Shown: positions 18,018 to 21,991 of the stretch, piece by piece
Layout of the letters: each line of letters starts with the position of its first letter
Position numbering within the stretch: position 1 is the first letter of the stretch
NCBI GenBank assembly: GCA_015056765.1
Contig: SVFQ01000002.1
Coordinates: 124,001-188,000, forward strand
Direction of reading: 5' to 3'
DNA: 64,000 bases
Source: Lachnospiraceae bacterium
GTDB lineage: Bacteria; Bacillota; Clostridia; Lachnospirales; Lachnospiraceae
The notes under the pieces: generated by a model
Told to the model about the DNA's origin: nothing
Seen by the model: the letters and a program-made list of their open reading frames with translations, nothing else
The model's database searches: none
Program-made: the position numbers and the translations under genes

Positions 18018-20435
18018 TTAGTCTCTCAGATTAATGCCCATGCTTTCAAGACCATTTAGAATTTTCTTCATGGCTCCTGTTACATCTGCTTCTTCCAAAG
18101 TTCTATCCTTTGCACGGAAGGTAATGGAATAAGCGACGGATTTGAATCCGGCTTTAATCTGATCTCCCTCATAAACGTCGAAGAGTTTCACTTCCTCTAA
18201 CAGTTTGCCGGCTCTCTGGCTAATCATAGCCTCGATATCTCCTACCGGAATCTCTTTCGGTACAACCATAGATAAGTCACGGCTTACTGCAGGGAATTTT
18301 GCAATGCCCTCATACTTACGATCAAAGGTAGCAAATGGTAAGATTTCAGGCATATCCAGTACAGCCACATAAGCTCTGCACTTCATGTCATAGTTCTTGC
18401 AAACTTCAGGATGTACTTCACCAAGGAAGCCAATTACTTTACCTTCATAGCTCATGACAGCACCACGTCCGGGATGCAGGAAAGTCTTACCATGTTTGCC
18501 ATCATAAGAAACTTTACCATTCATACCAATTTGGCTTAAGAATTCTTCTACCACACCTTTCATGGTAAAGAAGTCTCCATCCCCGTAGAATCCCAAAGTA
18601 AACTGCATTCTTTCATCAGGCAGCTCTGTCAGAGGCAGTGCCTTTGGCAGATAGATATTACCAAGTTCGTACAGTCTGCAATCGCCGTTACGACGGTTGT
18701 AGTTGGTAGATAAGCTGGTCAGCATACCATTTAAGGATACGGTACGCATGATTGCATAATCTTCACCCAAAGGATTGGCAATACGGATTGCCTGTCTTTC
18801 CTTTGCATCTTCCGGCATTAACAGCTTATCAAATACCTTTGTACTTTCGAAAGAATAGCTCATGCCCTGAGAGAAACCGCAGAATTCTGCTACGTCTCTG
18901 GCTTTTCTTTCAATCATCATCTTAAAGGTCAGCTTACCTGCTACAGCAGAACCACCCGGCATGGTGGTAGGAATCTTATCATAGCCGTAGAAACGAGCTA
19001 CTTCCTCTGCGATATCTGCAAAGCCCTTTAAGTCCTGACGGAAAGATGGGCAAGTCAGCATGTTGGTAGCTGGATCATATTTGATTTCCAGTCTTTCAAA
19101 ATAAGAAAGCATATCTTCCTTGGAGATATCAGTACCAAGGAATGCATTGGTTTTTTCAGGCTCAAATGGCAGAGTAACCAGGTCCTTTAATGGCTCTTTC
19201 ACATCTACCATACCACCGACTACTTCACCACAACCCAGTTCTTCAATCAGCTGGCAAGCACGCATAATAGCTGCTTCTGCATTGCGAGGATCCAGGCCTT
19301 TTTCGAATTTACCGGAAGCATCTGTACGAAGACCAAGTCTCTTAGCAGATTTACGGATGTTTGGTCCGTTGAAGGTAGCTGCTTCGAAAAGAACAGTCTT
19401 TACATTGTCCGTAATCATGGTGTTTTCACCACCCATGATACCTGCGATGCCCACTTCTTTCTCGCCATCACAAATCATTAAGATGTCATGATCTAAGCTG
19501 CGATCCTGACCATCCAAAGTACGGAAGGTATCTCCGTCTTTTGCACGACGAACCACGATTTTCTTACCTGCGATGGTATCCAGGTCATAAGCATGCATCG
19601 GCTGACCGAATTCTTCCATGACATAGTTGGTGATATCTACTAAGTTATTGATTGGACGAATGCCACTGGCAGCTAATCTTCTCTGCATCCACCATGGTGA
19701 TGGAGCGATTTTGATGTTCTTTACCACTTTTGCACAGTAACGAGTGCACAGGTCATCCTGAACATCTACAGAAATATAATCATTTACATCTCCTGTTTCG
19801 TTTTTCACTTCTACAACAGGAGGATTGCAAGGCAATCTAAAGGTAGCTGCGACTTCTCTGGCGATACCAAGGATACTGAAACAATCTACACGGTTATTGG
19901 TAACTTCATATTCGAATACGGTATCATGCAGACCCAGTACTTCTACGGCGTCTGCACCTACTTCAACAGAGTCATCAAATACGTATAACCCTTCTTCCGG
20001 TGCTTCCGGATAGAAGTTACGAGAAGAGCCCAGCTCTTCAATGGAGCACATCATACCGTTAGAAGGTACGCCACGTAATTTACCTGCTTTAATAGTGATA
20101 CCTTCTTCCGGAAGGGCGCCACCGTCATGGCCACCTGCTACTTTACCGCCATCTAATACAACAGGCACCTTCATACCTACGACTACGTTAGGCGCACCTG
20201 TTACAATCTGAATGGTCTCTGTGCCGATGTTTACCTGGCAAATCACCAGTTTATCGGCATCCGGATGTTTCTCTACAGATGTGATCTGTCCTACTACGAT
20301 TTTCTCTAAGTTTTTATCCAGTCTGGTAAAGGTTTCCACCTTGGTACCGGACATGGTCATTTTGTCAAAATATTCGCGATCTGTGCATTCCAGTCCTGGC
20401 ACATACGCTTTAATCCAAGATAATGCTGTATTCAT
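18018..20435 (-). CDS. pheT: phenylalanyl-tRNA synthetase beta subunit
   Basis: 805 aa; N-terminal tRNA-binding domain; B3/B4 region RPINNLVDITNYVM; GLRTDASGKFEKGLDP. Confidence 0.98.
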   Translation of the reverse strand: MNTALSWIKAYVPGLECTDREYFDKMTMSGTKVETFTRLDKNLEKIVVGQITSVEKHPDADKLVICQVNIGTETIQIVTGAPNVVVGMKVPVVLDGGKVAGGHDGGALPEEGITIKAGKLRGVPSNGMMCSIEELGSSRNFYPEAPEEGLYVFDDSVEVGADAVEVLGLHDTVFEYEVTNNRVDCFSILGIAREVAATFRLPCNPPVVEVKNETGDVNDYISVDVQDDLCTRYCAKVVKNIKIAPSPWWMQRRLAASGIRPINNLVDITNYVMEEFGQPMHAYDLDTIAGKKIVVRRAKDGDTFRTLDGQDRSLDHDILMICDGEKEVGIAGIMGGENTMITDNVKTVLFEAATFNGPNIRKSAKRLGLRTDASGKFEKGLDPRNAEAAIMRACQLIEELGCGEVVGGMVDVKEPLKDLVTLPFEPEKTNAFLGTDISKEDMLSYFERLEIKYDPATNMLTCPSFRQDLKGFADIAEEVARFYGYDKIPTTMPGGSAVAGKLTFKMMIERKARDVAEFCGFSQGMSYSFESTKVFDKLLMPEDAKERQAIRIANPLGEDYAIMRTVSLNGMLTSLSTNYNRRNGDCRLYELGNIYLPKALPLTELPDERMQFTLGFYGDGDFFTMKGVVEEFLSQIGMNGKVSYDGKHGKTFLHPGRGAVMSYEGKVIGFLGEVHPEVCKNYDMKCRAYVAVLDMPEILPFATFDRKYEGIAKFPAVSRDLSMVVPKEIPVGDIEAMISQRAGKLLEEVKLFDVYEGDQIKAGFKSVAYSITFRAKDRTLEEADVTGAMKKILNGLESMGINLRD

Positions 20436-20480: not shown

Positions 20481-21497
20481 CTAGAACTGTTTCAGGAAGC
20501 GGATATCATTCTCATATAAAAGACGCATGTCGTCAATTTCGTATTTCAAAAGGGCAATACGCTCAAGACCAAGACCAAAGGCAAATCCTGTGTATTCCTC
20601 AGGATCGATATTGCATCTCTTTAATACGTCAGGATGTACCATACCGCAGCCAAGGATTTCAATCCAGCCTTCACCCTTACAGAATCTGCATCCTGTACCG
20701 CCGCATTTAAAGCAGCTTACATCCATTTCTGCAGAAGGCTCTGTGAATGGGAAGTGATGTGGTCTGAATTTTACTTTGGTATCTGCACCGAAAAGTTCTT
20801 TTGCGAACTCCTGCAAGGTACCTTTCAAATCTGAAAAAGTAATATTCTTATCGATGACCATACCTTCAATCTGATGGAAGGACGGGGAGTGTGTCGCATC
20901 TACTTCATCTGCACGGAATACACGTCCCGGAGCAAGCATACGGATAGGAAGCTTGCCTTTCTCCATTTCACGGACCTGAATTGGAGAAGTCTGGGTACGA
21001 AGTAAAATATCATTACCAATATAGAAAGTATCCTGTTCATCTTTTGCAGGATGATCCGCAGGAATATTCAGAGCTTCGAAGTTATAGTAGTCTTTCTCTA
21101 CTTCAGGGCCTTCTACCACTTCATATCCCATGCCTACGAAGATACGCTCGATTTCTTCTAGCGCAATAAAGTTTGGATGTCTGTGTCCTACCAGGTTCTT
21201 CTTAGCAGGTAAAGTTACGTCGATGACTTCCGCTTTTAATCTTGCTTCCATCACCTCTGCTTCCATACGCTTTTTGGCATTCTCCAGTGCTGTTTCGATT
21301 TCTTCACGAACAGCATTTACCATTTGGCCCATCTTCGGTCTATCTTCTGGCGGAATGTCTTTCATGCTTTTTAAGAGACCGGTCAGTTCACCTTTTTTAC
21401 CAAGGAACTGTACTTTAATGTCCCCTAATTTTTCAAGAGCTTCGGAGTCTTTAATCTGGCGAAGCGCTTCTTCTTTGATTTGGTCTAATCTTTCCAT
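20481..21497 (-). CDS. pheS: phenylalanyl-tRNA synthetase alpha subunit
   Basis: GHRHPNFIALEEIERIFVGMGYEVVEGPEVE; FGLGLERIALLKY; start MERLDQIKEEAL. Confidence 0.98.
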   Translation of the reverse strand: MERLDQIKEEALRQIKDSEALEKLGDIKVQFLGKKGELTGLLKSMKDIPPEDRPKMGQMVNAVREEIETALENAKKRMEAEVMEARLKAEVIDVTLPAKKNLVGHRHPNFIALEEIERIFVGMGYEVVEGPEVEKDYYNFEALNIPADHPAKDEQDTFYIGNDILLRTQTSPIQVREMEKGKLPIRMLAPGRVFRADEVDATHSPSFHQIEGMVIDKNITFSDLKGTLQEFAKELFGADTKVKFRPHHFPFTEPSAEMDVSCFKCGGTGCRFCKGEGWIEILGCGMVHPDVLKRCNIDPEEYTGFAFGLGLERIALLKYEIDDMRLLYENDIRFLKQF

Positions 21498-21530: not shown

Positions 21531-21745
21531 ATCCCTATATCCACTTTCGCAGATATAGGGACGATTTCTCGCGGTACCACCCTGATTCCTATAATCCTAT
21601 AGGCACTCTTGGACGTAACGTGTCTCCTACGGCCTAAACTACTGTGATTCATCCAGGCAGCTACAACGGGAATATGAGTCTTAATGTAAATAAGGAAGCT
21701 TACAGCCGGTGACTTCCTCTCTCTGAAAATAGGGATTAAGACCTT
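21531..21745 (-). promoter_or_regulatory. T-box leader (Phe specific) of pheST
   Basis: Minus strand AGGGTGGTACCGCG (T-box, 21570-21583), terminator TCCCTATATC/GATATAGGGA + TTTTTT, Stem I GGTCTTAAT...ATTAAGACT with AGAGAGAGGAAG...GGCTGTAAGCTTCC and probable TTC specifier in ATATTCCCG. Confidence 0.93.
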
Positions 21746-21775
21746 TATGCGTTGTCTACGCTTTTGGGCAAAATA

Positions 21776-21956
21776 AACCCCCAAAATGCCGATTCCTGTA
21801 ATTGACTCCTAGCTCGCGCTAGGTGGGCAACCGCAATCATATTTCTGCCTTCCTCCGAATCAAAAGATTAAGGCCTGACATCCACATGATAATGTAGGAA
21901 TCCCGTTTAAAGAAATGTAGGATCAAAATAACAGGAGTTGCCGAGCATTTCAGGTT
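21776..21956 (-). ncRNA. ssrS: probable 6S RNA
   Basis: About 180 nt; closing helix CCUGAAAUGC/GCAUUUUGGG plus UCCUGU/ACAGGA; terminal hairpin GCCUUAAUC-UUUU-GAUU...AAGGC; 3'-side hairpin CCUAGC-GCGA-GCUAGG in a large bubble; dedicated sigma70 promoter. Confidence 0.72.
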
Positions 21957-21962
21957 AAACTC

Positions 21963-21991
21963 ATTATAATGCAGGTTCTGCCTGCTGGCAA
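21963..21991 (-). promoter_or_regulatory. sigma70 promoter of the 6S-like RNA
   Basis: TTGCCA (21986-21991) - 17 bp - TATAAT (21963-21968) on the minus strand. Confidence 0.75.

Follow-up and report, generated by a model that had tools for sequence, protein, structure and literature searches.

In the window, the whole 64,000-nt stretch of Lachnospiraceae DNA analysed here (contig SVFQ01000002.1, positions 124,001 to 188,000), the gene for 6S RNA, a regulator of RNA polymerase, is followed directly by the T-box leader of pheST, the phenylalanyl-tRNA synthetase operon, with neither a T-box promoter nor a hairpin terminator between them, and the same arrangement is present in three genomes. We propose, with a probability of roughly 0.6, that 6S is here the promoter-proximal part of the pheST transcription unit and carries a leaky built-in terminator and/or a nuclease site. 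The elements of the locus, in the order of transcription, are as follows:

21963 to 21991, minus strand: sigma70/sigmaA-type 6S promoter, TTGCCA-17-TATAAT (consensus scan, 11/12)
21774 to 21959, minus strand: 6S (SsrS) RNA (Rfam RF00013, 67.2 bits against a gathering threshold of 46.4)
21945 to 21954, minus strand: 5' strand of the 6S closing helix, CCTGAAATGC (RNAfold; covariation)
21780 to 21789, minus strand: 3' strand of the closing helix, GCATTTTGGG, which is also the 5' arm of a proposed junction hairpin
21770 to 21777, minus strand: T-rich tract TTTATTTT right behind the closing helix, a putative leaky terminator or cleavage site
21760 to 21768, minus strand: CCCAAAAGC, the 3' arm of the proposed junction hairpin
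21554 to 21767, minus strand: T-box leader (Rfam RF00230, 99.1 bits against a threshold of 93)
21531 to 21562, minus strand: T-box terminator hairpin, then TTTTTT (terminator scan)
20481 to 21497, minus strand: pheS, phenylalanyl-tRNA synthetase alpha (open reading frame; 77-87% identity to Lachnospiraceae PheS)
18018 to 20435, minus strand: pheT, phenylalanyl-tRNA synthetase beta (open reading frame; sequence and position)

The whole 6S fold, whose closing helix, central bulge and apical stem are kept in relatives, is recovered by RNAfold, and the RNA is the single 6S match in the window genome, which is 84% complete. In the T-box, an alignment read by eye places the specifier at 21727-21725, where UUC precedes AGAGA; this Phe codon fits the downstream synthetase gene pheS, and the UGGU bulge lies at 21579-21576. 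The two RNAs are closely packed: the Rfam models are 6 nt apart, and 18 nt lie between the closing helix, whose 3' end is at 21780, and the first pair of Stem I (21761), fewer than the ~30 nt that the earlier note had given between the 6S 3' end and Stem I. Located upstream of 6S are a ROK-family and a TPR-GGDEF gene.

The distribution of the tandem was assessed with a pattern combining a 6S motif (CCCACCTAG) and a T-box motif (GGGTGGNACC) 201-261 nt apart, which demands exact motifs, so that diverged tandems may escape it. Two of 397 family genomes, which represent 334 genera, match: the window genome and G277, which belongs to a different genus. A second species of the latter genus, G580, has the same fused 6S-T-box-pheST tandem, bringing the total to three genomes from two sister genera (2/334 genera in the family search), a small group of gut/rumen Lachnospiraceae. 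The T-boxes of G277 and G580 reach Rfam scores of 97.2 and 100.7 bits. Apart from the window, no tandem was matched in a sample of 196 genomes from the class at the same spacing, and none in 196 genomes from the order at a wider spacing of 246-306 nt. Since 6S was found as a single copy in each of the three tandem genomes, all of them incomplete metagenome-assembled genomes (77-84%), this locus most likely supplies their 6S RNA; two copies per genome, as seen in G024 and G132, are unusual in Lachnospiraceae. That the arrangement is a neutral rearrangement or an assembly error of no functional consequence seems highly improbable: the incompleteness of the three genomes and the rarity of the tandem would fit such an explanation, but three separate assemblies from two genera share it together with like linkers of the form GGGTTT(A/G)TTT, the window contig is 225 kb long, and pheST has no other visible promoter. 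Because it recurs in G277 and G580, the tandem is, as judged from these assemblies, not a quirk of one of them.

A promoter-like site of its own is a regular property of the non-tandem pheS T-boxes scored in this family. In the 75 nt ahead of the T-box, the best such site scores 8-11.5 out of 12 in all 36 of them, and only 6 out of 12 in each of the three tandem genomes, which is the level of shuffled sequence (median 6.5). In the window, a consensus scan found no promoter and a terminator scan no hairpin terminator between 6S and the T-box. Because both elements are missing, it is very probably the 6S promoter that drives pheST. The earlier note had proposed a single unit of 6S, T-box and pheST and had seen no convincing separate T-box promoter; the chance-level site bears out the latter point, and the former gains support from the tandem in three genomes, the absence of the T-box promoter exactly there and the single 6S copy. 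A different account would place a hidden T-box promoter in the 3' half of 6S, or one read by another sigma factor, so that two units merely abut and the 3' half of 6S would join the T-box 5' UTR. A candidate site does exist inside 6S (TTGATT-16-TATGAT, 21863-21836, 9/12), but the number of such sites is at chance level (4 found, 2.1 expected), no counterpart is visible in G277 or G580, and the usual strong T-box promoter is absent in the tandem genomes only; we therefore consider a hidden promoter improbable.

If transcription starts at the 6S promoter, the question is how a discrete 6S RNA is made. Of 135 6S genes in the family, 105 are followed within 125 nt by a hairpin terminator, and the median distance from 6S to its T-run is 42 nt. 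The remaining 30 differ from these in the sequence that immediately follows the closing helix. If any 8 nt that begin 0-4 nt past the helix and contain 6 or more T are counted as a T-tract, it is present in 15/30 genes that lack a hairpin terminator and in 8/105 that have one (p=9e-7, kinship uncorrected), and in 12/27 versus 8/105 when the tandem genomes are left out (p=2e-5, again uncorrected for kinship). The difference is strongest right behind the closing helix and fades further downstream. In the window, the helix is followed by 2 nt and then UUUAUUUU; the tract TTTATTTT has 7 T in 8 nt, and its equivalent in G277 and G580, TTTGTTTG, has 6 in 8. The earlier statement that the junction has no T-run terminator thus stands with respect to a hairpin terminator and falls short with respect to the T-rich tract at 21777-21770. 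These data suggest that 6S may act as its own terminator through closing helix and U-tract, and that in the tandem this terminator would be leaky; in the window it must leak, because pheST sits behind it. The closing helix encloses a domain of ~165 nt, unlike the short loop of an ordinary intrinsic terminator; this is unusual for a terminator stem and counts against the reading. Self-termination of this kind may be common in Lachnospiraceae as a way in which 6S ends.

In the model that we favour, RNA polymerase would initiate at the 6S promoter (21991-21963) and transcribe 6S, whose closing helix and U-tract (UUUAUUUU) would form a weak built-in terminator and/or a landing site for a nuclease. 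Some transcripts would end there as mature 6S and others would read through to the T-box, which is predicted to halt transcription at 21562-21531 unless uncharged tRNA-Phe is bound, and trimming as far as the closing helix would release the 6S portion of read-through RNAs. The output of pheST would then be the product of 6S promoter activity, 6S read-through and tRNA-Phe antitermination. Read-through, leaky termination and trimming are here inferred from sequence comparison. The stricter version, in which 6S is an obligatory leader of T-box-controlled pheST, one promoter feeds both and a leaky self-terminator splits the flow between them, is put forward tentatively. A related scheme dispenses with termination at the U-tract altogether: all transcripts would enter the T-box, and 6S would arise solely by cleavage and trimming of the precursor. 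This fits the lack of a hairpin terminator, the unstructured, U-rich linker and the co-processed 6S reported in Streptococcaceae (PMC8414754), but it does not account for the specific enrichment of T-tracts where 6S lacks a hairpin terminator, and we regard it as rather unlikely.

Several other loci have features of interest in this region. At L016, L017, L118, L120, L139, L154, L159, L180 and L200, the closing helix runs straight into a T-tract and there is no hairpin terminator, which makes these candidate self-terminating 6S genes. In many Lachnospiraceae, (T)ACAAAAGA(TAA) occurs once or several times ~0-130 nt after 6S, often just ahead of the terminator hairpin (loci include L002, L010, L023, L126, L135, L137, L156, L194 and L197).

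The junction between the two RNAs also contains a potential competing structure, which the earlier note had interpreted as a switch coupling 6S maturation to the charging of tRNA-Phe. The complementary segments do exist where it had placed them (GCATTTTGGG at 21789-21780 and CCCAAAAGC at 21768-21760) and are able to pair, forming a hairpin (GCAUUUUGGG/CCCAAAAGC) of 9 bp with one bulge at -9.5 kcal/mol, slightly weaker than the 6S closing helix at -10.7 (as a duplex) to -11.0 kcal/mol. The GC of CCCAAAAGC (21761-21760) is the start of Stem I, so the hairpin also opens the base of that stem. With T-box starts as defined by Rfam, the pairing is only mildly unusual, falling within the top 1.9% tail of 4946 combinations of a 6S end with an unlinked T-box start; 2/39 other T-boxes pair equally well or better with the 6S strand of the window, and 26/127 other 6S strands do so with its T-box start. 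Both arms are mainly family consensus: GCA.UUUU is that of the 6S 3' end, where the commonest 3' strand is CGGCATTTTGGG, and AAA.GC is that of pheS T-box starts, which begin AAAAGC, AAAGGC or AAATGC. The earlier note had also called for the conservation of both pairings to be checked in relatives, and here the two helices part ways. The closing helix is kept: 97% of cells are paired across 40 genomes, both sides are altered in 13 cells, and covariation scores higher than in any of 500 shuffles, although such shuffle-based scores can be inflated by relatedness. The junction hairpin is broken in G277 and G580, where mismatches in one genome or the other, or in both, hit four of its nine pairs, and other positions are gapped or weak; this comparison comprises three sequences and is a failure of conservation, not proof against a function in the window.

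The order of events during transcription weighs against the switch as well. Polymerase reaches the 3' arm of the hairpin only once it is past the U-tract, so the hairpin is unable to decide termination there. Moreover, 6S lies upstream of the T-box decision, and attenuated and full-length transcripts both carry it; charging of tRNA-Phe would therefore not alter the amount of 6S sequence made. The existence of the pairing, its stability close to that of the closing helix and its place in the 1.9% tail speak for a competition that ties 6S maturation to tRNA-Phe charging, but its loss in G277 and G580, the consensus nature of its arms, the covarying closing helix, the position of 6S ahead of the T-box decision and the cost to Stem I make this very unlikely indeed. 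The hairpin was rejected as a conserved switch, and the junction complementarity is probably a coincidence. Global folds of 6S plus T-box were not used as evidence, because the minimum-energy fold (-124.8) mixes both RNAs and lies within 2.4 kcal/mol of the separately folded domains (-55.5 and -66.9).

What the co-transcription of 6S is for, as in ssrS-ygfA, is a long-standing question. The tandem makes this link testable, as an essential and separately regulated operon would sit on the 6S promoter. If pheST depends on that promoter, altered 6S transcription should alter the supply of synthetase, deletion of 6S should be impossible without a new pheST promoter, and a single promoter would set the supply of both 6S and phenylalanyl-tRNA synthetase. 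The T-tracts of terminator-less 6S genes suggest, in addition, that 6S can set its own 3' end. Two known systems are comparable. In Escherichia coli, 6S is co-transcribed with the downstream gene ygfA (PMC2848244); as proposed for the tandem, the transcript continues into a protein gene and 6S is cut or terminated out of it, but no tRNA-sensing attenuator lies between, whereas the tandem has a T-box within 18 nt that controls pheST. One transcript seems to yield both 6S and a downstream tRNA-Lys in several Streptococcaceae (PMC8414754), likewise with a Gram-positive 6S that is not separated from a downstream RNA, which in that case is a tRNA rather than the T-box leader of a synthetase operon. 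Other T-box-pheST loci of Lachnospiraceae (L036, L110, L208 and others) have the same T-box class, gene order and attenuation hairpin, but their T-boxes have their own TTGACA/TATAAT-like promoter just upstream, which the tandem genomes lack. The open-access papers found by searching contained no report of a 6S/T-box tandem, which we regard as a new form of 6S co-transcription with a downstream unit, built from well-established parts.

Among 100 family 6S loci taken with up to 2.5 kb of downstream sequence, nine are followed in that stretch by a co-oriented pheS, usually with one gene between. At L070, L082, L102 and L110, where Pfam was tested, the intervening gene is BrkB/YihY (PF03631), and the order 6S, BrkB/YihY-like membrane protein, (T-box), pheST recurs at these loci; the intervening reading frames of several other 6S-pheS loci resemble the BrkB/YihY ones, and L140, L144, L150, L155, L168 and L199 were assigned to the same order by this resemblance. 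The T-box is present at some of these loci and absent at others. G239 (L208) has no middle gene, and there a 6S hairpin terminator and a promoter (TTGACA-17-TATCAT) separate 6S from the adjoining T-box. In G299 (L033/L035), from the genus of the window, a GGDEF gene is followed by 6S, a terminator, a 500-aa gene, the T-box and pheS. A PheS tree places G277 and G580 as sister to G299 plus the window, with support of 92/90 that is not full. From this tree and the gene order of G299, the tandem had either one origin, followed by insertion of a gene in G299, or two, in which the gene in the middle was lost. The linkers of the tandems, GGGTTTATTTTG and GGGTTTGTTTGTG, are alike in their shared form, and this sequence likeness favours one origin without proving it. 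A BrkB-type gene is retained elsewhere in the window genome (G000:C27:138926-139672) and in G277 and G580. Finally, a Clostridiales-1 RNA (Rfam, 107.9 bits) lies downstream of pheS in G230 (L168:423-580, minus strand).
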